Shown here piece by piece: positions 7,415 through 63,489 of a stretch of DNA of 64,000 nucleotides. How positions within the stretch are numbered: the first letter of the stretch is position 1; every line of letters begins with the position of its first letter. The DNA is taken from positions 86,738,107 through 86,802,106 of the forward strand of contig OY720344.1 of NCBI GenBank assembly GCA_963082975.1, written 5' to 3'. The notes under the pieces are model-generated. The model searched no databases. It saw only the letters and a list, made by a program, of their open reading frames with translations, and was not told where the DNA came from. The position numbers and the translations under genes were made by a program. Source of the DNA: Labia minor (Eukaryota; Arthropoda; Insecta; Dermaptera; Spongiphoridae).

Positions 7415-7620
7415 TAGGTATATTATTTTTTAGATTTTTTTTTTATAAAAATATTTGAAATGTTTTAATCTGTTTTGTCGTTTAATTTTTTCTTAATTCT
7501 TATAAATGTTTATTATTTTATATATATTTTTTTTTTTATCTATTTTCGTTTTTATTTTTTATTAAATTACCTTTTTATATATATTTATTGTTCTTATATT
7601 AATTAATTTTTATATTATTA

Positions 7621-8650
7621 ACTAGCTGCTCAGAGCTCCTTCGTCGCTCTTCACATCTAGACGGGGGCTCCGCCCCCTGTACCCCCGAGTGGTACATAGT
7701 ATTTGGTTGAAAGTAGTAAAAGGTTTTCATCCATTTTGTTTCAATCAATGTATAACATAAAACATTCATTTCTTATTGTGTGATTATTTAAAATATATTT
7801 TAATTTAATCAGTAAATTAATTATATATATTTTTATTGAATATGTTATATCTATCTACTCGAAAGTTCTTGGCAGCTACAACCACATTTCTCCAAGTGTC
7901 CTTCTCCTGAGCCTCTGTTCCATCTTTCTTACGTCATTCCCTGGTGTCCTCATCTTTGGCCCATAAATGCTGGGAAGAATCCTATTCTCAAATACTCTGA
8001 ATCCTCTCATCTCCTAAGATCATAGACCATGTCTCACACCCATATAATACAACAGACAAAATAATTGTTTTATATATTTTAATTTTCATTCCCTTAAATA
8101 ATTTTTTTGATGAGATAAGCCTCTTTACTGCATGATAACAGGCGTTTCCCGATTGCAACTTCGATTTAAATTCTTCTCAAATATTATTATCCTTCGTGAT
8201 TACATTCAATTTTTCTACATATTCAAATTCTACATTTTGTATGTTAATACTGCTCCTGTTTGTTTCTAAATATATTTATTTATCATTATTAATTTCAAAC
8301 CTCATCTCTTTTCCTACCTCGATTAATTTTTCCTCGCTATCTGTAATTGCAATTGCCGAATCTCCTATTATATTTAAGTCGTCTGGGTCACCTAATATTT
8401 TACAATTGATTTCCGCATCTCACTCTTTCTTTACTACCTTCAAGATAAATTTTAAGATCAAAATTTGAAAAAGTTTATCCGGATCTATTGAGTCATGCGT
8501 AGGTTTTACTAAAGTCTACAAATAATTAGTGAACAGAGATATTGAATTCGCGGTTTTTTAATATCTGTCATAATGAAAATATCTTAATTAATGTTGATCG
8601 ATTTGGCATGAACCCGCAATGATATCGTCTAATATTTCCTCCGCCTATAG
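7621..8650 (-). mobile_element. LINE 3' half (RT domain to 3' tail)
   Basis: Read on the minus strand, this begins with RT words CGFMPNRSTLIKIFSL and FVDFSKTYA (8640-8500). A catalytic-box relative, DPDDLNIIGDS, follows near 8390, then the tail region and the GC-rich 3' end at 7700-7621. The complementary plus-strand frame at 8196-8468 is only its shadow. Stops and frame breaks are frequent, so it is inactive. It shares its tail hairpin with the copies at 2690-2810 and 41104-41180. Confidence 0.85.
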
Positions 8651-8904: not shown

Positions 8905-9530
8905 TTTTACCGACCGACGATAGTAAGGGAGGTATTGTTTTCACACCAAATTTCACATGTGGAGATTTTTACATATCTCCACGAATCATGCATTTTCTTA
9001 ACAGAAAAAAGTATTTTTAGCATGATGTCTGTCCGTCCGTCCGTCCGTATAGATGTGTACAGCCTGAACGGCTGAACGGATTTTGATGAAATTTGGTATA
9101 TTTACTTAATGCATCAGTGGGATGAATTGATCAACTTTTGGTGCAAATCCGGAAATCGGAAGTGGTAGTATTAGCGATCGACGATAATAAGGGAAGGGTT
9201 ATTTTCACACAAAATTTCACATGAGGAGATTTTTTTATATATCACCACGAATCATGCACTTTGTATTGGTTTTATCCTCGGGAAAATCATATTTATTAGT
9301 TTTTTCTTGATTTAAAATTATATGACGTCATCCAGCCATTCATGACGTCACAGCCTCGTCTTGCATATATATTATAAATAAAATAAAATTAAAAATATTT
9401 ATGTTATATTCATATCTGTTTTTTATTACATTAATAGATATATTAAAATTATTTGAAATTGTTTCTGTAGCTGGAAATTAATTTATTTCAAACCGTCGGT
9501 CGGTTCGGACCTGGCCACAGGTCAACTTAT
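8905..9530 (+). mobile_element. Helentron-like non-autonomous element, family A (copy A1)
   Basis: The left end carries ACCGACCGACG (8909-8919). Its exact reverse complement CGTCGGTCGGT lies at 9494-9504, and a perfect stem-loop GACCTGGCCACAGGTC follows at 9508-9523. The interior has TATTGTTTTCACACC, an ATGTCTGTCCG block with CCGT repeats (about 9024-9050), then GATTTTGATGAAATTTGG. This layout (matched subterminal repeats, hairpin outside the right one, simple repeat in the middle) is that of Helentron-associated elements such as INE-1. No protein is encoded. The plus-strand frame at 8863-9075 is a by-product. Confidence 0.75.
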
Positions 9531-13621: not shown

Positions 13622-14343
13622 TCTGGAGTGTTTCTACTCGACTATCTCGCAAATTTGAATTGCATTAATTAACATATATTATATTTAAATTAAATTTAAT
13701 TAATTATAAATTAAAATTAATAAATAATATTTATTAAACCAGCGCATGTTTGGCTCTTTGTTGATGGCACCACGTCACGTGTTGGCGAGTGAGATTTGCC
13801 GTGTTAAAAAATTAAATTCTGGTACTTTTAGAGATTCAATCAAGCTGAAATTCTATATATTTCAGTTTTATACAATTTTTAATCATGTGAAAAACTATCA
13901 AACATATATCTTTATTTTTACGGTCAGTTTAGAGGAAAAAAATGAAAACGTTGTAGGTAATAACCCTTTGAATAATGCCCGTGTACCAAATTTCATTATT
14001 CTAGATCAAAATGTAATCTTGTCTACATATATACACACATACACATAGAGACAGACATTTTTCTCAACCTTAGTGAAAATGACTAAGGGACCTTCAAAAC
14101 GTATAAAAACATCAAAATCTCGACACCGAAAATTTTCGTTATCGCAATACTCTCTCTGGCGAGATAGTAAAAATGTTTATCCCTAGAAAGTTTTTATAAA
14201 ATTAAATGAATTTCTTTTAATATCATTTTGTTCTTATTTTTTTTGATCTCAATAATATTTTTTTTGTCAAGCGTTACCTAAATGGTATAGAACTATTTAC
14301 AGAACTTGCGATCGCAATACTATCACAGGCGAGATAGTAAAAA
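13622..14343 (-). mobile_element. Helentron-like element, family B (copy B1), with a doubled end
   Basis: Reading on the minus strand, the left end is ACTATCTCGC plus AGTATTGCGATC-type sequence, and the right end is GCGAGATAGT (complement of 13641-13650). The right end is followed by a GAGT...ACTC stem-loop (complement of 13626-13639). The interior carries a short simple repeat and CCAAATTTCATTATTCTA. Two left-type ends are present, at 14159-14168 and 14329-14338, so either a second copy is fused here or the end was duplicated. No protein is encoded. The 100-codon plus-strand frame at 13746-14048 lies wholly inside the repeat. Confidence 0.7.
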
Positions 14344-19829: not shown

Positions 19830-20478
19830 ATAAGTTGACCTGTGGCCAGGTCCGAACCGACCGACGGTTTGAAGTAAATTAATTAGCAGCTACAGAAACA
19901 ATTTCAAATAATTTTAATATATCTATTAATGTAATAAAAAACAGATATGGATACATAAATAATAAATATAAACATTTTTAATTTTATTTTATTTATAATA
20001 TATATGCAAGACCAGGCTGTGACGTCATGAATGGCTGGATGACGTCATATAATTTTAAATCAAGAAAAAACTAATAAATATGATTTTCCCGAGGATAAAA
20101 CCAATACAAAGTGCATGATTCGTGGTGATATGTAAAAAAATCTCCTCATGTGAAATTTGGTGTGAAAATAACTCTTCCCTTCCTATCGTCGATCGCTAAT
20201 ACTACCACTTCCGGTTTCCGGATTTGCATCAAAAGTTGATCAATTCATCCCACTGATGCATTAAGTAAATATACCAAATTTCATCAAAATCGGTTGAGCC
20301 GTTCAGGCTGTACACATCTATACGGACAGACGGACGGACGGACGGACGGACAGACATCATGCTAAAAATACTTTTTTCTGTTAAGAAAATGCATGATTCG
20401 TGGAGATATGTAAAAATCTTCACATGTGAAATTTGGTGTGAAAACAATACCTCCCTTACTATCGTCGGTCGGTAAAAA
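19830..20478 (-). mobile_element. Helentron-like element, family A (copy A2)
   Basis: This is an inverse-orientation copy of A1. The stem-loop GACCTGTGGCCAGGTC is at 19837-19852, the subterminal ACCGACCGACG at 19856-19866, and its complement CGTCGGTCGGT at 20463-20473. The ACGG tetranucleotide block is near 20325-20350. The interior is collinear with A1 at high identity by eye. It has no coding capacity. The minus-strand frame at 20447-20229 matches the frame seen in A1 and is a repeat by-product. Confidence 0.8.
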
Positions 20479-25807: not shown

Positions 25808-26344
25808 ATGGGTCACCGTAGTTGCAGTGTTGTCGATTGCAAAAATACTAGTAGAAAAAGTGAATATAAGTTTTACAAATTTCCAACTGCGAAATGAAAA
25901 ATAAATCAAAGACAAAAGTGGATAGTTGCAGTAAGAAGGCGAACGTAAGTAATACCATAACCTCTATTTCAGTAGTAATAATAACAGAGAATAATATTTA
26001 AAGACAAATCGAAAAATTTGGTAATTTAGTATAGTATTTAAATTAGTGATAGAAAAATTGTATTATTTTATTTTTAATATTTATCTAAGTTAATAAACAA
26101 AAAGAAAAAATGTCTAGTATTTCTCATATTTGTAAATTTTCGTGAGCATTTAATTCCAAAATATTTATTTACAGTATTTCATTTAATTTGTAGTGTTGAT
26201 GTATCACCGTGGGTACCAAAACCAGATGATTGTATTTGTAGCGAACATTTCATAGGAGGAAAAAAAGTCAGATGTCCGAGTTTTGCTCCAACTATATTCC
26301 CTTCTATCTACAAGTATCAAAAAATTAATGAAACCTCAGCTTAG
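25808..26344 (+). pseudogene. THAP zinc-finger N-terminus, two exons, with a stop
   Basis: Exon 1 (25808-25944) starts at an ATG and reads MGHRSCSVVDCKNTSRK, then EYKFYKFPTAK, a TGA, and KWIVAVRRR. It ends at a GTAAGT donor. Exon 2 (26194-26344) follows a TAG acceptor and reads VDVSPWVPKPDDCICSEHF, then GGKKVRCPSFAPTIFPS. Intron length is 249 bp and the phases fit. The C-x4-C, later C-x2-H (CSEH) and the APTIFP end are the THAP (C2CH) landmarks. The in-frame TGA, where W is usual, and the stop after exon 2 show it is broken, unless the TGA is an assembly error. THAP domains bind DNA; here this would be the transposase end-recognition domain. Confidence 0.75.
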
Positions 26345-32137: not shown

Positions 32138-32752
32138 TTTTACTATCTCGCCAGAGATAGTATTGCGATCACGAAAATTTTTGATGTCGTGATTTTGATG
32201 TTTTTATACGTTTTGAAGGCCCCTGAGTCATTTTCATTAAGGTTGAAAAAATGTCTGTGTGTGTATGTGTGTCTGTAGACAAGATTACGCAAAAACAGTT
32301 TGAGCTAGAATAATGAAATTTGGTACACGGACATTATTCAAAATTCGTAGTTTTCTATCAACTTTTGAGAAATGTAGCTCATTTTGAAGAGAGTCATTCA
32401 TTACCTACCACGCGTTTTCATTTTTACCCTCCAAACTGATCGCAAACATAAAGATATATGTTTGATAGTTTTTCACATGATTAAAAATTGTATAAAACTG
32501 AAATATATAGAATTTCAGGTTGATTGAATCGCTGAAAGTACCGTAATTAATTTTTTAACTCGTTGACTGCCAATCACGCGACAGCACGTGAAGTAGTGCC
32601 ATCAACAAAGAGCCTAACAAGCGCTGGTTTAATAAATATTATTTATTAATTTTAATTTATAATTTAATTAATTAAATTTAATTTAAATATAATATATTAT
32701 GTTATTTAATCCAATTCAAAAATGCGTGATTGTCGAGTGGAGACTGCAGATT
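32138..32752 (+). mobile_element. Helentron-like element, family B (copy B2)
   Basis: The left end carries the near-perfect palindrome ACTATCTCGCCAGAGATAGT (32142-32161), then ATTGCGATCACGAAAATTTT. The interior has a GTGTGT block, GTAGACAAGATTACGC and ATGAAATTTGGTACACGG. The right end reads TGCGTGATTGTCGAGTGGAG, the eroded partner of the left repeat plus the outer stem-loop. It matches B1, B3 and B4. It has no coding capacity. Confidence 0.75.
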
Positions 32753-38553: not shown

Positions 38554-39376
38554 TTTTAAGCTATTGCATAGTCGTGGGCTTTGAGCGCGGCGACCGAATC
38601 AAGAAATTCCTTAACGAAAATAAACCTAACAATGTGCCGAAGTCTGCCTAAACGAAGTTAGACGATGCAATAATTTTTGAAACATTGTTTTTAGCGTCTC
38701 TGAAGGCCAGAACTAAAGGAAAAAAATAAAATAAAATATATCATGTGGTCGTTGTCTGGTTACCCTACCGGGTACTAACCTTGCCCGATGTTGCTTAACA
38801 ATAAATATAAGACTCTGACACACAATGTTAATTTTTGAAAGATTGTTTTTAGCGCCTCTGAAGGCTCTATCCCAGAATTAATGTCGAAAAAACAAAACGG
38901 CCACAAATGGTAATAAATTTCCGCTTAACTTGGCTGGCGATTTCAACATCAACTTCGCTGTTAAAAAATCAGAGCGGTTGACAACTTTTCTTTCAGAAAA
39001 ATTGAATTTGGAAATTAATAATGATCTACAAGAATCCACCATTGACGCGGTATTTTCTAGATATTTAGAGGATATCAAGTCTCAAACTTTTGTTTCTTAT
39101 TTCAGTTACCATAAACCTATAGATTCAATTCCTGAATAACCTACATGTATTGTAAGATGATAAAAATATTTTAAACTCATTTATTCAATAAAAGAAAAAA
39201 AAAATTGTTTTCTTATCGGTCACCACGATCAAAAAGTGTAACTTGGATTAATATATCAAAGAAAAAAAAATACTGCATAAATGAAATAAATTAAAAATAA
39301 ATAATTATAATTGCATAAGTTGATAAAAAAATGCTATGCAATAGCTTTACCGCGGCAATCCCCGACTGCCACACAT
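38554..39376 (+). mobile_element. Helentron-like element L with endonuclease remnant
   Basis: The left subterminal repeat AAGCTATTGCATAG (38558-38571) is matched exactly by CTATGCAATAGCTT at 39334-39347. Outside it lies a stem-loop GGCAATCCCCGACTGCC (39354-39370, one G.T-type mismatch). The 5' part contains GTGGGCTTTGAGCGCGGCGA and two copies of GATTGTTTTTAGCG-type sequence followed by CCTCTGAAGG/TCTCTGAAGG. A coding remnant is listed separately. This is the end structure of Helentron (Helitron2) elements, internally deleted to about 0.8 kb. Confidence 0.75.
38930..39139 (+). pseudogene. C-terminal endonuclease fragment of a Helentron
   Basis: The open plus-strand frame reads LAGDFNINFAVKKSERL, then STIDAVFSRYLEDIKSQ and FVSYFSYHKPIDSIPE before a stop. 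GDFN.NF and the DAVF and SYH box are landmarks of the exonuclease-endonuclease-phosphatase fold used by LINEs and by the AP-type endonuclease domain of Helentrons. The SYFSYHKPI wording at a protein C-terminus is what I recall from Helentron proteins of insects. Only the last 65-70 residues remain, directly before the element's right end. The minus-strand frame at 39078-38878 is the shadow. Confidence 0.65.
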
Positions 39377-39539
39377 TGTATTTTATTATATTAATATGTA
39401 ATATATTTTTAGTTTCGCCGAAAATGGGATCGATCCCTGCAAATAACTCAAATTTAAAATTGAATAATTTATTTCCAATAAAAAAATTTGATCAATTAAA
39501 AATTGACAAAGATCCCAAAATCCAATAAAATTAAATAAA

Positions 39540-41007: not shown

Positions 41008-41095
41008 GGGTCGTTCTGACCCGGGGGTGCAGGGGGTAAGGGAAGGGGCGGCAAAATTATTCTCGCACCCGGGCGGCCTATGCCCAGTATATATA
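41008..41095. repeat. GC-rich repeat scrap
   Basis: GGGGTCGTTCTGACCCGGGG, GTGCAGGGGGTAAGGG and CACCCGGGCGGCC lie directly before a TA array and the LINE tail. The composition is like a repeat 3' end rather than coding DNA. No second copy was seen in the window. Confidence 0.35.
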
Positions 41096-41103
41096 TATAT
41101 ATA

Positions 41104-41950
41104 TACTAGCTGCCCCGAGCGCCTTCGGCGCTCTCCGCACCTAGACGGGGGCTCCGCCCCCTGTACCCCCCCGAGTAAAAGGTTTTCATCCATTTTGTTT
41201 CAATCAGTATATTACATAAAACATTCATTTCTTTTTGTGTTCTTTTATTTAAAATACATTTTAATTTAATCACTAAATTAATTATATATATTATTATTGT
41301 ATATGTTATATCTATCTATCTATGTGACTCTAAGGAACTCGAAAGTTCTAGGCCGCAGCAACCACATTTCTCCAAGTGTCCCTATCCTGAGCCCTTGTCC
41401 CATCTCTCTTACGTCCCTTCCTACACGTCCTTGGTCTTCCAAGCGGACGTTTTCCAATCCAAAATCTTTTTCCTCTCCCATTCTAGCCGCGTCCCCTGCC
41501 TATCGCAGCTTTTTCGCTTTTATAACCCTAACTATTTCTGAAGATGCATAGAGGTCATGCAATTCCTCGATGTGCAGTCTGCGCCATTCCCCGGTGACCT
41601 CATCTTTCTTTGGCCAATAAATGCTGGAAAGAATACTCTGGATCTACTCTCATCTCCCAGGGTCATAGACCTTGCGTCCCACCCATATAATACAACAGGC
41701 AAAATAATTGGTTTATATATTTTAATTTTGATTCCTTTTGATAATAATTTTGATGAGATAAGCCTCTTTACTGCATGATAACAGGCGTTTCCCGATTACA
41801 ACTTCGATTTAAATATATATATTCTTCTCAAATATTATTATCCTTCATGATTACATTCAATTTTTCTACATATTCAAATTCTACATTTTGTATATAGATT
41901 TTGTTACTAAATATTTTTTCTTATCACCATTAATTTCAATCTGAATTAGA
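41104..41950 (-). mobile_element. LINE 3' half with well-kept tail
   Basis: The minus strand runs from the RT-region words near 41900 (CAAAATGTAGAATTTGAATA) through the VFE...FGQKKDEVTGEWRR-type segment (41700-41590). It continues through the RWADD/RRPRGRP region to the 3' UTR and the tail at 41180-41104. The tail keeps both triloop hairpins, GAGCGCCTTCGGCGCTC and GGGGGCTCCGCCCCC. A TA array (41087-41103) follows the GCTAGT end. Short plus-strand frames are shadows. Confidence 0.85.
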
Positions 41951-42154
41951 AGAAAATTATAAATTACCTCCTCTTCCAGCCCATTTACCTATCCAGGCAT
42001 CTTAATTTCTTAACACTCCGTTTTTTACTTTCCCGCATACTTCGTATAAGGGAAGTATTGGAATCGTCAAAAATTTCGACTTCGAGATTTCGATAGATCT
42101 TGACGTTTTAGACCTCCCTGAGTCGGAAAATACCATTTTTCGAATTATGTCTGT

Positions 42155-42209
42155 GTGTGTGTATGTATGTATGTATGTATGTATGTATGTATGTATGTAT
42201 GTATGTATG

Positions 42210-42240
<31 letters not shown>
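42155..42240 (+). repeat. ATGT tetranucleotide microsatellite
   Basis: About 20 units of ATGT follow GTGTGTGT inside element E, in the position where related families carry CCGT or GT repeats. Confidence 0.95.
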
Positions 42241-42537
42241 TGTCTGTAAGCAAATTTACTCAAAAACTAATCAAGCTAGGACTTCGAAATTTGGTACACC
42301 GATATTATTGACAGTTTCTAGATTTCTATCAAAATTTTGTCAAAATCGGTTAACCGGAAGTGGTACTTTACCTACACTGGTTGCGTTTACCTTTCAAGTA
42401 AAGTACCAGTTTGCTTCGAGATATTTGCTTCATATTTTGTATATAGATTTAAAAATATGAAAAAAATTGAGATACCAAATTTCATCATGATCTGACTACC
42501 GGAAGTGACATTTTACCTATACAAGTAGCGTTTCTTT

Positions 42538-43005
42538 TTTACCGACCGACGATAGTAAGGGAGGTATTGTTTTCACACCAAATTTCACCTATGGATATTT
42601 TTAAGTACATATCTCCACGAATCATGCATTTTCTTAACAGAAAAAAGTATTTTTAGCATGAAGTCTGTCTGTCCGTCCGTCCGTCTGTCCGTCCTTCCGT
42701 ATAGATGTGTACAGCCTGAACGGCTCAACGGATTTTGATGAAATTTGGTATATTTACTTAATACATCAGTTGGATGAATTGATCAACTTTTGGTGCAAAT
42801 TCGGAAACCGGAAGTGCTAGTATTGCCGATCGAAGAGAGGAAGTGAAGGGTTATTTTCATATCAAATTTCACGTGAGGACATATCTCCACGTGTTATGCA
42901 CTTTGTATTGGTTTTATCCTCGAGAAAAATCATCTTCATTAGTTTTTTCTTAATTTAAAATTATATGACGTCACCCAGCACTTCATGACGTCACAGCCAG
43001 CCCTT
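42538..43005 (+). mobile_element. Family A element, right end missing (copy A3)
   Basis: It begins TTTACCGACCGACGATAGTA, then TATTGTTTTCACACC and the GTCTGTCTGTCCG block. After GATTTTGATGAAATTTGG come TTTATCCTCGAGAAAAATCA and GACGTCACAGCC. It stops there without the CGTCGGTCGGT end and abuts the D end of G2. Confidence 0.75.
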
Positions 43006-43736
43006 ATATATCTTATCTTATTATGCTAGCTAAAATTGTATATATGTATTTATCTATATATATTGGTTCTCAAAAACCGCTCTAACGATTTTTTTCAAAT
43101 TCACACTAGATATAGTATTTATAAAGAAAAATTAAGTTTTATTGATGATATCTCTTGAAACATACAGCTTCATTATTAATTTCTTAATTGAAAATTATAT
43201 ATGGAAAACGTCAAAATTTTTAATACTGCCTGCTAAGACAGTAAAAAAATGACAATTTTTTATCTAAATACATATAGTCCAGCGGTTGGACTGATGTTTT
43301 AACGAGTGGATTTCGTCGGTTCGAAACTCGCCGGGTGAATCGTTATTTAAAAATGAAAATAATGATTTTGTTATTTTTTTTTCTTTTTATCTATTGTTTA
43401 CTTTTTAATAAATTTTTATTCTGTATTTATTTATTCATTGTTCTTTTATTAATAAAGTTTTAGATAGTTTTATAAGTTTTAATATTTTTTCAATAAAATA
43501 TTATTCAATATATTTATTAATATTATTTTATTTATTATTATTGAGTACCCGAAGTTCCATTCATTTTAATCAGATTGATGCAATGATGCAACAGTTAATA
43601 ATTGTAATATTGTAATAAATTTCTATCTTGAAAATTGTTACATATTATACAGGATATTTTAAAAACTATTTCTTTCTTTAATTAATATTCATTTTTTCTA
43701 TAAGTCAGATATATTTCCAAATATTAAATAATTTTT

Positions 43737-44245
43737 GAAGTGAAAACTTCTTTAGCGGCGTTGAGCACTTTTGCGGGATGGGGAAAAAGTATAGAACTCG
43801 CGTGATCGTGACCAACACCATGAAACCATCTGCTTTCAAATTTCTTATAACAGAGCGCGAAATTTGAATTGTCATTAGAACTGTTTTATAAATTATCTCT
43901 AACATATAAATATATATTTATTATGTAAAGTTCATTTCATATATACATATATAATCAAAATTATACGAAATGAACTTCACATAATAAATATATATTTTAT
44001 GTTAGAGATAAGAATTATAAAACAGTTCGTATTGCAATATTTTAAACAAAGTTGTGTATTTATATATATATAAATATAAGTTACAAATTTGTTTAAAATA
44101 TATGTTTAAAATAATATATAAGTTATATATATATACATGCATATGAAATTCATCTTTCTCGTGAAATAGCGCGAATTTCGTCTGTTTTAAAATTTCTTAC
44201 GCAGAAGTTTTCACTTCTGTCGGCCAGTCCCACGACTGCCAATTT
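43737..44245 (+). mobile_element. Helentron-like element M with a long internal palindrome
   Basis: GAAGTGAAAACTTCT (43737-43751) is matched exactly by AGAAGTTTTCACTTC (44203-44217). A stem-loop follows at 44222-44240 (GGCCAGTCCCACGACTGCC; GGC.AGTC pairs GACTGCC with one bulge). The middle holds a large hairpin, listed separately. No protein is encoded. The minus-strand frame at 43905-43705 lies within it and is not credible as a gene. Confidence 0.6.
43878..44028. repeat. Long imperfect palindrome, arms about 60 bp
   Basis: GAACTGTTTTATAAATTATC and the following bases up to AAAGTTCATTTC are mirrored after a loop of about 30 bp by GAAATGAACTTCACATAATA up to ATAAAACAGTTC, with few mismatches. 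A transcript through it would fold into one long hairpin. Confidence 0.85.
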
Positions 44246-44604
44246 TGCTTTTTTAATTCCGAAAAGCTGCAAAGCACGTTTTTTTGTCTTTAGTTTGTTT
44301 TATAACCACTTGGGGCGCTAAACAGTTTTTCAAAAAAACACTATAGAAAAAAAATATATGTACCTATATATTATATATTTATGTATTATTGAGGAGCACA
44401 AGTTCATTAATTTTAATCAGATTGATGCAAATGTGTAACATTTAATAATTGTAATAAATAATTAAAGAATTGTGTATCAATATTTTTTAAAGGGTAGAGC
44501 GAGAGCTCGGTGTCCCAGGTATTAATATTACCAGCCAAATCCAATAATAATGAATCATTTTTTTTAACTTAAGTACCGAGCCGAGGCTCGGGGTCCCGGT
44601 ACTT

Positions 44605-44693
44605 ATAAATAAAATAAAATTAAAAATATTTATATTATATCCATATCTGTTTTTTTTACATTTAAAATATCAGTTAACCGGAAGTAGCACTTT

Positions 44694-44705
<12 letters not shown>
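44605..44705. repeat. Family A interior scrap
   Basis: TATAAATAAAATAAAATTAA then ATATTTATATTATATCCATA and TCTGTTTTTTTTACAT match the A interior at 9370-9425. TTAACCGGAAGTAGCACTTT follows. It sits between the G2 end and the right end of E. Confidence 0.55.
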
Positions 44706-44728
<23 letters not shown>

Positions 44729-45158
44729 GTTACCAAATATCAAATTTGACACCAATAAACAAATACGAACTGGCTCTTTATCAATACCAAGTTTACACAT
44801 TCTAAATATTCATTCACAACTCTTTATACCTATTTATATGCGGGAAAGTCTAGGGGAGGACACTCCCGCTTATTTAAATTTAAAATAAAAGGAGATAAAT
44901 AGTTTTAAATTATATTCGAATGGTCTATTATATTCTATATATCAGTATTTTTTTCTGAATTTAATACCAACTTGATTTTCAAAATGTTCCATTCGTTATC
45001 CATATGATTGATTACATGTGTTAAAATTTAAAAAAATTCAAATATTCTAATTTTTAAATTTAAATACAATTGAATATTATTTTTTATTAATATCATATCA
45101 AAAAAGAGAATTTATTAAAAATTAAAAATAAAAAAAGAAGCCTATTAATAAAAAAATA

Positions 45159-48989: not shown

Positions 48990-49525
48990 AGATTATCTTT
49001 TTTGGCCAATAAATTGGGGAAGAATCCCATTCTCAAATACTCTGAATCTACTCTCATCTTCCAGGGTCATAGACGATACCTCCCTCCCATATAATACAAC
49101 AGGCAAAATAATTGTTTTATATATTTTAATTTTGATCCCCTTTGATAATAATTTTGATGAGAAAAGCCTCTTTACTGCATGATAACAGGTGATTCCCGAT
49201 TGCAACATCGATTTAAATTCTTCTCAAATATTATTATCCTTCGTGATTACATTCAATTTTTCTACATATTCAAATTCTACATTTTATATATTAAGATTTT
49301 GTATGTTAATTTTGTATGTTAATACTTAATTAATTTCAAACCTCCATTAATTTTTCCTCGCTATCTGTAATTGCAATTGCCGAATCTCCTATTATATTTA
49401 AGTCGTCTAGGTAACCTAACATTTTATAATTGATTTCCGCATCTTATTTTTTTTTACTACCTTCAAGACAAATTTGAAGATCAAAATTTGAAAAAGTTTA
49501 TCCGGATCTATTGAGTCATGCGTAT
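48990..49525 (-). mobile_element. LINE RT C-terminal fragment
   Basis: The minus-strand frame at 49208-48993 reads ITCYHAVKRLFSSKLLSKGI, KIYKTIILPVVLYGREVSS and LEDESRFRVFENGILP, the segment just after the RT palm. Upstream words at 49350-49525 correspond to the DLNIIGDSAIAI and CGF...RST regions seen at 8390-8500. Broken by stops. Confidence 0.85.
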
Positions 49526-49529
49526 GTCA

Positions 49530-54308: not shown

Positions 54309-54782
54309 AAAATCTGGAGTGTCTCCACACGACTATCTCGCAAATTTGAATTGGATTAATTAACATATTTTATATTTAAATTAAATTTAATTAATTATAA
54401 ATTAAAATTAATATATAATATTTATTAAACCAGCGCGTGTTTGGCTCTTCACGTGCTAGCGCGTGATTGCCAGTCAACGTTAAAAAAATAATTTCCATAC
54501 TTTCAGCGATTCAAACAAGCTGAAATTCTATATATAGCAGTTTTATACAATTTTTAATTACGTGAAAAACTATAAAACATGGTAGGCAATGAATCTTCTG
54601 AAAAAGCTTTCATTATTCTAGCTCAAACCATTTTTCCGTAATCTTGTCTACATACACACATACACACACAAATCATTTTTCTCAACCTTAGTTTAAATGA
54701 CTCAGGGACCTTCAAAACGTATCAAACTCTCTACATTGAAAATTTTCATGATCATAATACTATTTTTGGCGAAATAGTAAAA
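54309..54782 (-). mobile_element. Helentron-like element, family B (copy B3)
   Basis: TCTGGAGTGTCTCCACACG then ACTATCTCGC at the left, and an eroded GGCGAAATAGTAAAAA at the right, match B1. The interior has CACACATACACACAC simple repeats and TTCATTATTCTAGCTCAAAC. Non-coding. Confidence 0.7.
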
Positions 54783-56334: not shown

Positions 56335-56625
56335 TTACCGACCGACAATAGGAAGGGAAGGTATTGTTTTCACACTAAATTTCACATGTGGAGATTTTTA
56401 CATATCTTCACGAAACATGCATTTTCTTAACAGAGAAAAGTATTTTTAGCATGAGGTCTGTCCGTCAGTCAATCTGTATATCCGTCCGTCTGTCCAGTGT
56501 GTGTCCGTATAGACGAGTACAGCTTGAACATCTCAACCGACTATATATACTTAATTCATCAGTACCATGAATTCATCAACTTTTGGTGTATATCCGGAAA
56601 CCGGAAGTGATACCTTACAAGTAAT
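56335..56625 (+). mobile_element. Family A element, right part missing (copy A4)
   Basis: TTTACCGACCGACAATAGGA, TATTGTTTTCACAC and CATGTGGAGATTTTTACATA are followed by GTCCGTCAGTCA/CCGTCCGTCTGTC and GGAAACCGGAAGTGATA. This is the left half of family A. It is more diverged than A1 and A2. Confidence 0.7.
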
Positions 56626-57063
56626 TTTGTATTCATTGTCAGAAACTATTTCACTTAAAATATAATAGTAAAAAATAATTGAGTAATTAAACTAAAAATA
56701 AAAACCAAAATAATATAATTTAGTCATTTTAATTCAAGTTTTAAAAATATTTTTTTTTTGATACTTTATATACGTATATATATATTATATATAATATATT
56801 TTGGAACTTAATTTATTCTGTGCCTAACCACAGCTTATTTTATAAAAAATTTTTTTAAGTGTAAAATAAAATTTAACATCAAAATCTAAAATTAAGATTT
56901 ACTTAAATTTTATTTTAAAGGTTTTAATGATCAGATTCCCTTAAATCACTATAAATATATTCATCATTATATGAGTATAACAGTTGGGTGATTCTCATGC
57001 AATAACAAGATGGTTGGTTACATTTCAAAAGGCTTTAAAACTTAACATCTGCTGTCAATTGAA

Positions 57064-59710: not shown

Positions 59711-59714
59711 ACTA

Positions 59715-60220
59715 CGAGGGCAATTCACAAAGTAGGTTACGTTTTGGAATTAAGACAAAACTAGTATAAGAAAATGTTTTTTATTATATACATTTAAAAG
59801 AGCAACTAAAACACTATTTTTTTACCTAATCGCCAAAAAAAGTTGTGACATTTATCGTAGCGATGAACGAGTTTCGAAATTCCTTCCTCATAGAAATCCG
59901 CCGCCTGAGTGGTAACCACCTGGCACAAAACTTATGGTAGCCTAACTTTTGAGAAACAATTTCGTTAATAAAGTGCATGAAATTTGCGGAAAATTGAAGG
60001 AAAGTTCGGTTATGGTGAAATGACGGTTTCCTCCAATTTTTTTAATTGATCTTTTTCACCAGTTCATTTTTTTCACCGTCATTTCACCATAACCGAACTT
60101 TCCTATTATGAAGAAAAATAGTATTTTAGTTGCTCTTCCAAATGTATATAATAAAAAACATTTTCCTGTACTAGTTTTGTCTTAATTCCAAAATGTAATC
60201 TATTTTGTGAATTACCCTCG
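59715..60220 (-). mobile_element. Internally deleted mariner with long inverted arms
   Basis: The ends CGAGGGCAATTCACAAA and TTTGTGAATTACCCTCG are flanked by TA (59713-59714 and 60221-60222). The inverted similarity continues for about 108 bp on each side. Between the arms, minus-strand scraps read ITELSFNFPQISCTLL (the helix-turn-helix part of a mariner transposase) and, directly joined, AADFYEEGISKLVHRYDKC (its C-terminus). The catalytic middle is gone. A perfect 29-bp inverted pair (59999-60027 and 60075-60103) lies inside. It cannot move by itself but may be mobilised in trans. Confidence 0.85.
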
Positions 60221-60224
60221 TAAA

Positions 60225-62845: not shown

Positions 62846-63353
62846 TTTTTACTATCTGTTTACAATGTGTTTTGTGTCTGTGTGTGTGTGTGTGTGTGTG
62901 TAGACAAGATTACGCAAAAACGGTTTGAGTTAGAATATTGAAATTTGGTACACGGGCATTATTCAAAATTTGTAGTTTTCTAACAACTTTCGAGAAATTT
63001 AGCTCAACCGGAAGAGGGTCATTACCTACCACGCTTTGATATTTTTTCCTCTAAAGTGACCGTGAAAATAAAGATATATGTTTGATAGTTTTTCTCATGA
63101 TTAAAAATTTTATAAAACTGCTATATATAGAACTTCAGCTTAATTGATTGGCTGAAAGTACCGGAATTAATTTTTTAACAGAACTGCAAATCACGCGCCA
63201 GCACGTGAAATGCTGCCATCAACAAAGAGTGCTGGTTTAATATATATTAATTAAGTTTAATTTATAATTTAATTAATTAAGTTAAATTTAAATATAATAT
63301 ATATTAATTAATAAAATTAAAAAATGCGAGATAATAGAGTGGATACACTCCAG
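62846..63353 (+). mobile_element. Helentron-like element, family B (copy B4)
   Basis: TTTTTACTATCTG at the left is followed by a GT array (62876-62900), GTAGACAAGATTACGCAAAA and GAAATTTGGTACACGG. The right end has TGCGAGATAATAGAGTGG with a perfect stem-loop GAGTGGATACACTC (63337-63350). It lacks about 90 bp of the left part present in B2. Non-coding. Confidence 0.75.
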
Positions 63354-63489
63354 CTTATTTATTATTATTTTCTATGGATAACCATTGAAATTTATATTTA
63401 TATATCAAAATGGTATATATTAAAATGTTATTACAAACTCCAAACAATCTTAGCAAAAAACATACACTCACACCTTTTATCCTATAAAG

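Follow-up and report, generated by a model that had tools for sequence, protein, structure and literature searches.

Five repeat families in the Labia minor genome with the organization of non-autonomous Helentrons

Among the described systems that resemble the repeats considered here, DINE-1/INE-1 of Drosophila is reported to carry 13-bp subterminal inverted repeats (subTIRs), a partial inverted repeat (IR) beside the 5' subTIR and a GTCY microsatellite in the left block, followed by a stem-loop after the 3' subTIR, and to insert at TT (PMC2374699). HINEs and Helentrons of a mite, Culex and Drosophila are likewise described with palindromic subTIRs, a 3' palindrome and a T-rich target in which the number of T varies and which is otherwise unmodified, although there the autonomous partner shares its ends with them, whereas none was found here (PMC4067079). 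The same account defines HINE families by an identical subTIR of at least 11 bp, and describes an endonuclease fused to Helentron proteins (PMC4067079). Cg_HINE of the Pacific oyster is a further likeness, with subTIR, complementary IR, GTCY microsatellite, 3' subTIR and palindrome, and with element-specific changes that take in subTIR, IR and stem; it differs in its satellite-like arrays mid-element, where family A, below, has one inner repeat of its head module (PMC7492417). Helitron2, with asymmetric terminal inverted repeats, is comparable in its hairpins at both termini and its T-rich insertion, described as falling between TTTT and T or C, but is described as lacking the endonuclease; in the same source the target of canonical Helitrons is A^T (PMC5148889). 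The organization as such (subTIR, IR partner, GTCY microsatellite, 3' subTIR, palindrome, TT target) is thus already published for Drosophila and oyster, and much of it for the mite and Culex, as far as these descriptions extend (PMC2374699; PMC7492417; PMC4067079), and what is new here is the families. A DINE-1 core fragment matched A, B and E no better than shuffles.

The window, the whole 64,000-nt stretch analysed (G000:C1:86738107-86802106, in a genome of 604 Mb and 71 contigs), is AT-rich, with a G+C content of 20-33% per 2 kb. It holds the families A (with a subfamily A'), B, E, L and M, which are very probably non-autonomous Helentrons, that is, HINE/DINE-1-type rolling-circle transposons. 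They show a 5' boundary at a T-run, paired subTIRs and a 3' hairpin near a CTTA-like end, although the hairpin is weak in L and one B copy, and none was found in the single relative of M that was read. A first-pass annotation had proposed a single Helentron- or DINE-1-like plan for these families, and this was borne out by the paired subTIRs, by ends that stay sharp over dispersed copies of A and E, and by insertion into T-runs. All five of the subterminal inverted pairs that it named were found in place and exact (10 bp in B). The stem-loop that it placed outside the right repeat is there in A, one B copy, E and M, and is weak in L and B copy 1. Each of the five begins with A or G behind a T-run, with at least four T upstream of the left repeat, and ends in CTTA or similar; their end signatures include ACCGACC..CTTA, ACTTTCCC..GCTTA, AAGCTATTGC and GAAGTGAAA. 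Under the 11-bp rule A, B, E, L and M would count as separate families. Family A and subfamily A' are represented as follows.

8907..9529, + strand: A copy 1, TT plus element, with left subTIR at 8909-8919 and right subTIR at 9494-9504
8925-8937, ~9026-9046 and 9089-9098, + strand: IR relic, GTCY microsatellite and core AAATTTGGTA of A copy 1
9508-9523, + strand: 3' hairpin of A copy 1, GACCTG-GCCA-CAGGTC, with terminal AACTTA
19831..20475, - strand: A copy 2, complete, 93.9% identical to copy 1
42539..43010, + strand: left part of A copy 3, lying inside E, split by the unit at 43011-44602 and resuming at ~44603-44665, right end lost
56335..56837, + strand: A' copy, right subTIR deleted, hairpin CTGTG-CCTAAC-CACAG, terminal GCTTA

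With a 626-base query, A gave 1757 first-look candidates, and the 40 scored are 95-100% identical. Part of this copy number comes from a larger duplicated unit, since nine matches (L001-L009) have one right flank in common and eight of them also one left flank; each of the remaining A loci read has its own flanks. Among 24 insertions with distinct left flanks, the run of T on the 5' side is five long in 17, six in 4, seven in 1 and two in 2, and on the 3' side two to four T follow the terminal CTTA in 20/24. In 18/25 copies the left subTIR is the exact complement of the right one, and the hairpin stem is 6 bp in 22/25 and 5 bp in 3/25, a stem count biased upward because copies were picked with at most three mismatches at the right end. 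Two A copies are themselves nested in A. At one (L011) the joined flanks hold 8 T, as against 6 T in the unoccupied A copies shown (one with T4CT), and nothing else is duplicated; at the other (L028), read by eye, 6 T in unoccupied A compare with 5 + 3 at the occupied site. Insertion of A thus adds two T, and therefore either the element begins with TT or TT is duplicated, the data fitting both.

Within the A copy the microsatellite is present, but the inner IR partner no longer pairs with the subTIR. At another locus (L030) an A-like left end has a near-intact palindrome, ACCTTTCC..GGGAAGGT, which suggests that the inner relic of A may be the partner of an older subTIR; the right end of that element was not found within the locus. 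A second copy of A's own head module, 84-87% identical, lies at 9171-9262 in copy 1 as a partial inner duplication. Of A', 39 relatives besides the copy itself were scored out of 2376 candidates, all 84-90% identical, and their matches stop at query position 258 in 29 cases, at 282 in 3 (just past GCTTA plus T), at 291-292 in 2 and at 239-256 in 5. Six right ends were read: the subTIR is recognizable in 6/6 (exact in one, altered in the others), and the stem reads CTGTG/CACAG, intact or decayed, where A has GACCTG/CAGGTC. The copy at 56337-56837 had been a candidate for a swapped right end, which was ruled out, the six relatives keeping the A right subTIR and differing just in the hairpin stem. 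The wider suggestion of the first-pass annotation, that these repeats are one superfamily with swapped end modules, was not supported, as no copy was found that joins the left end of one family to the right end of another. At two of the six A' ends (L114, L118) and at one L end (L031), an A-type element begins in the T-run that immediately follows, as if the T-run of a HINE end itself served as a landing site.

Families B and E are present as the following copies.

13622..14168, - strand: B copy 1, left subTIR at 14159-14168 with palindromic partner, right subTIR at 13641-13650
14305..14338, - strand: solo B left end of ~35 nt
32142..32750, + strand: B copy 2, left hairpin ACTATCTC-GCCA-GAGATAGT, right subTIR decayed
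54313..54778, - strand: B copy 3
62870..63357, + strand: B copy 4, no left end found, hairpin GAGTG-GATA-CACTC, terminal GCTTA
42022..42535, + strand: E left part, TTTTT and then ACTTTCCCGCATA, left subTIR at 42027-42039 with partner GGGAAGT + ATTG, a GTCTGT/TATG microsatellite and core AAATTTGGTA at 42287-42296
44666..44872, + strand: E right part, right subTIR at 44837-44849, hairpin, terminal CCCGCTTA

The 40 B matches scored, of 8080 candidates, are 79-93% identical besides the query itself and some are partial; within the window, TTTTT precedes each of the left ends at 14168, 32142, 54778 and 14338. The solo left end at 14305-14338 adjoins a complete B copy, and other sequence follows it. 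The E copy is interrupted between 42535 and 44666 by an A copy and another mobile unit, and its boundaries are sharp across the genome. With 62 nt of flank in the query, 34/40 matches start at the left boundary, TTTTT before ACTTTCCC (query 59-63), the others being the query itself and five that start further in, with one extra piece starting at 40. With 48 nt of flank on the right, 37/40 stop at query 213-228, just beyond CCCGCTTA and TTT, and the remaining three, one of them the query itself, continue past the boundary. Five left and six right ends read singly agree with this, one of the six (L100) having the flank of the window copy; a seventh piece (L101) was too short to be used. Two paralogous empty sites of E (L059, L073) show 8 T, or 6 T + C, as against 9 T (6 + 3) when occupied. 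The ~0.9-kb stretch adjoining E at 41094-41939 belongs to another repeat family, 77-87% identical to 7611-8298, 49001-49527 and others.

The families had initially been described as unrelated in sequence, which is true of only some of them. B and E are homologous in head (0/2000 shuffles), core (0/2000) and 3' terminus, ACACTCC[AC]GCTTA (0/1000), with A linked weakly to both through short motifs, whereas L and M have no significant sequence in common with A, B and E by shuffle comparison. For A, shuffles reached the observed scores in 20/2000 (head, A-E), 30/2000 (core, A-E), 8/2000 (core, A-B) and 202/2000 (head, A-B). The kinship of A to B and E rests on motif order, not on strong similarity, because the same A-B and A-E scores are reached by 14 to 123 of 852 window tiles (these elements included). 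The left-end relic reported as common to A, E and B is indeed found, as AAGGGAGGTATTG at 8925, AAGGGAAGTATTG at 42048 and GAGATAGTATTG at 32154. The shared core AAATTTGGTA occurs at 9089 in A, 42287 in E and 32316 in B, and also at 26014, outside these elements. B and E both have, in the left block, the inner IR partner of the left subTIR and the GTCY microsatellite of the DINE-1 type.

Family L has one full copy in the window, which holds a coding remnant.

38558..39380, + strand: L copy, left subTIR at 38558-38571, right subTIR at 39334-39347, 3' end ..TTGTA before TTTT
38900..39136, + strand: endonuclease-like coding remnant inside L (GDFNINF..DAVFSRYL..YFSYHKPI)

The search with L yielded 53 matches, with 40 of 101 candidates scored; after the query itself, the highest-scoring match is 84% identical and partial. 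L is an old family. Its left subTIR is palindromic in other copies (AAGCTATTGCATAGCTT). Of the 8 copies that could be read, 6 have exactly five T before the left end, one has four and one has two. L and M have a weak 3' stem sequence in common (12/1000 shuffles), their left ends nothing significant (267/1000 shuffles); both have self-palindromic subTIRs and are without a GTCY-type microsatellite, and together they look like a second group. The remnant alone gave no Pfam match, and searches of the PDB, viral contigs and phages for endonuclease relatives returned none. A protein search with it listed, among the best 150 of 1105 candidates, itself, one match at 87% and 148 at 58-60%, most of these 148 with a 206-aa open frame and all with nearly equal scores. 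Because of these near-equal scores and mostly open frames, a very numerous endonuclease-bearing repeat, young or in a recent burst, is suggested; one of the 148 was read (in L061, below), and M-type ends for all of them are an assumption. An endonuclease-like fragment in L and in the M relative is in keeping with the endonuclease fused to Helentron proteins (PMC4067079), but it could also derive from a LINE. A candidate autonomous L element at L059 (C10:38873413-38882175) was rejected, no Helitron_like_N match lying there and its 628-aa frame being, by eye, what we take to be hAT-like.

Family M lies within a larger unit, here called the carrier, and has a relative at another locus.

43737..44248, + strand: M copy, left subTIR at 43737-43751, right subTIR at 44203-44217
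3' end of M, + strand: hairpin GGCcAGTC-CCAC-GACTGCC, terminal TTTTGC
43011..44602, + strand: carrier, with M inside, A^TCTTATC...CCGGTAC^T, lying in A copy 3 with no target bases duplicated
L061:614-2408: M relative, with M-type ends and a frame with the endonuclease fragment

Canonical Helitrons have a 5' TC and a 3' CTRR. The carrier starts with TC after A, ends in GGTAC before T and has a stem, CGAGCC/GGCTCG, near its 3' end, so that it fits a canonical Helitron in its TC start and A^T target, not in the CTRR end, and is best described as a canonical-Helitron-like unit. At its junction in A copy 3, four bases differ slightly left of the junction. Two carriers lack part of the 5' end, beginning at base 586 in L073 and at base 10 in L089; the latter is flanked by a direct repeat of 12 bases, which is unexpected for a Helitron. 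It is conceivable, though rather improbable, that M is a structural part of this 1.6-kb carrier and no separate transposon. All 40 of the scored M matches are 100% identical over 521 bases (991 candidates) and lie in the first 28 Mb of one contig; the flanks next to M are identical in 30/30 loci read, one with a single base changed, and the carrier, which is at least 99.2% identical in 30/30 and full length in 28/30, thus holds every M copy read. However, an element with nearly the ends of M and other content sits in the T-run of an L copy (L061). Its ends match those of M in 0/1000 (left) and 3/1000 (right) shuffles, with GAAGTGAAACTTCTTTAGCGGCG on the left and AAGAAGTTTCACTTC and TTTTGC on the right, and between stops it has a 240-aa frame that matches PF14529 at E 0.0037 and 17.6 bits, below the cut-off of 27.4. 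The site holds 5 + 10 T, as against 8 and 9 in the two closest L copies, a T gain that is uncertain because the length of the T-run varies among L copies. From this relative we infer that M moves on its own. The initial view of M as a family like the rest was not supported in that form, all 30 M loci read being passengers of the canonical-Helitron-like unit.

The remaining alternatives concern the families together. That they are independent inventions, whose likeness reflects no more than the T-runs and short inverted repeats available in AT-rich DNA, is very unlikely, even though L and M are without significant similarity to A, B and E and the head similarity of A and B is not significant. 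Under a rule of T4, an 11-mer with at least three G/C and its complement within 3 kb, the window contains 11 pairs, as against a mean of 1.1 and a maximum of 3 in 40 Markov-1 simulations with the same dinucleotide make-up. A stem of at least 5 bp follows the right repeat in 5/11 of these pairs (A twice, E, M and one other), as against 0 in 40 simulated windows, and the ends are sharp across dozens of dispersed E copies. B and L fail the stem rule: the stem of B copy 13622-14168 has 4 bp (5 bp in the B copy at 63326-63357), and that of L has 4 bp, or 7 if one mismatch is allowed. In DNA folding the right ends fold better than shuffles in A (z -2.1), B at 63326 (-2.5), E (-2.8) and M (-3.4), and fold no better than shuffles in B at 13622 (-0.3), L (-0.4) and the M relative (+0.1). 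On the left the values are -6.1 for B (the hairpin of copy 2), -2.2 for E, -1.1 each for L and M and -0.6 for the M relative, and A, at +0.6, is without a stable stem.

Slimmer still is the chance that the families are MITEs, TIR-type DNA transposons that duplicate two target bases, TT. A gain of two T in A, or of one to three in E, is what a TT duplication would produce, and the left repeat is nearly terminal. However, the gain is not fixed in number, and the right repeat lies ~20-33 nt inside the 3' end, with the hairpin outside it in A, E and M. The first-pass annotation had named insertion between T and T without target duplication as a check. Empty sites (two for A, one for E represented by two paralogs, and one for the M relative) show insertion in T-runs with nothing duplicated beyond T, and neither copies ending at other positions nor TIR-type duplications occurred where A and E were examined for them. 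Canonical Helitrons are the least probable reading, scarcely credible although RGLPH Rep motifs occur in Helitron genes of this genome, with frames of 1652 aa, and a canonical-like unit lies in the same window, as all five families sit in T-runs, have A or G as the first base behind the T-run and end CTTA-like.

If the families are non-autonomous Helentrons, then, as proposed for published HINEs, a RepHel protein acting in trans would nick at the 5' TT, displace one strand, stop at the 3' hairpin and join the displaced strand into a T-run that has itself been nicked. Pairing of the subTIRs on the left and right may bring the two ends together and serve as the address of the family. Such an address would explain why the subTIRs change together, and insertion of a single strand would explain why the target is not duplicated. 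With first-look candidates numbering hundreds to thousands each for A, B, E and M, the repeats could readily be misfiled as five unrelated unknowns; the HINE label gives correct boundaries and explains the nested insertions. With its very young rolling-circle copies, this genome is also suited to studies of how subTIR pairing matters, which helper is used and where insertions are polymorphic.

A Helentron- or Helitron2-type RepHel is present in the genome and is the putative helper of A, B, E, L and M. Helitron_like_N has 104 matches, and of the three Rep domains read, one has RGSPH and YWWRVE, and two have RGLPH. In the published account, RGSPH/YWWRVE is the Helentron and RGLPH the Helitron signature of Rep (PMC4067079). 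The RGSPH Rep (C9:34498524) is one of four equal-score matches, with frames of 1345-1785 aa, the other three lying at C2:71968315, C6:19230938 and C9:23424027; the Rep genes at C1:47868109, C1:85855789 and C2:66560054 are further candidates for the Helentron type. On the 3' side of C9:34498524, in the 2.0 kb from 2.5 kb downstream, the frame ends in ..NYQPPDET. Those 2.0 kb contain none of the five end types at 1-2 mismatches and no endonuclease match, and the last 37 residues of the frame are not endonuclease-like. No autonomous element with A, B, E, L or M ends was found in the search, which covered this stretch downstream of a single Helentron-type Rep. Among the best 150 of the 1105 endonuclease candidates, compared by eye, none lies within 10 kb downstream of a same-strand Rep; one, at C1:43704800, lies 3.9 kb upstream of a Rep match. 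PF21530 (helicase) is present in the 1652-aa Helitron-type copies, and C9:34498524 and its three equals are absent from that listing. Helitron2 and Helentron proper are both candidates for the group to which these families belong. The 1652-aa frames recur in equal-score Helitron_like_N copies at C1:82181971, C5:81088381, C9:43365333, C9:45506044, C10:14925745 and others; these copies are likely a recently active canonical Helitron, and possibly the helper of the carrier.

Paired changes occur both in the subTIR and in the hairpin. B and E agree at 8/10 subTIR positions, both differences being matched on the right side, and from A to A' the hairpin stem is altered on both sides, from GACCTG/CAGGTC to CTGTG/CACAG. 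That the subTIR pair and the stem stay complementary when changing fits a role in end pairing and termination. Taken further, it may be proposed, tentatively and with the odds against it, that the end address, made up of left subTIR, inner partner and right subTIR, is altered jointly on its two sides in an otherwise conserved element, as is, separately, the 3' stem, in B versus E, A versus A' and the L030 element, and that the M type spreads as cargo of a canonical Helitron, its endonuclease-bearing relative existing in very many near-identical copies. If so, left-right complementarity would be selected as a recognition code, and families would split by changing that code. Elsewhere in the window, inverted arms of 118 bases at 59713-59830 and 60105-60222, 90% identical, look like an ordinary TIR element.
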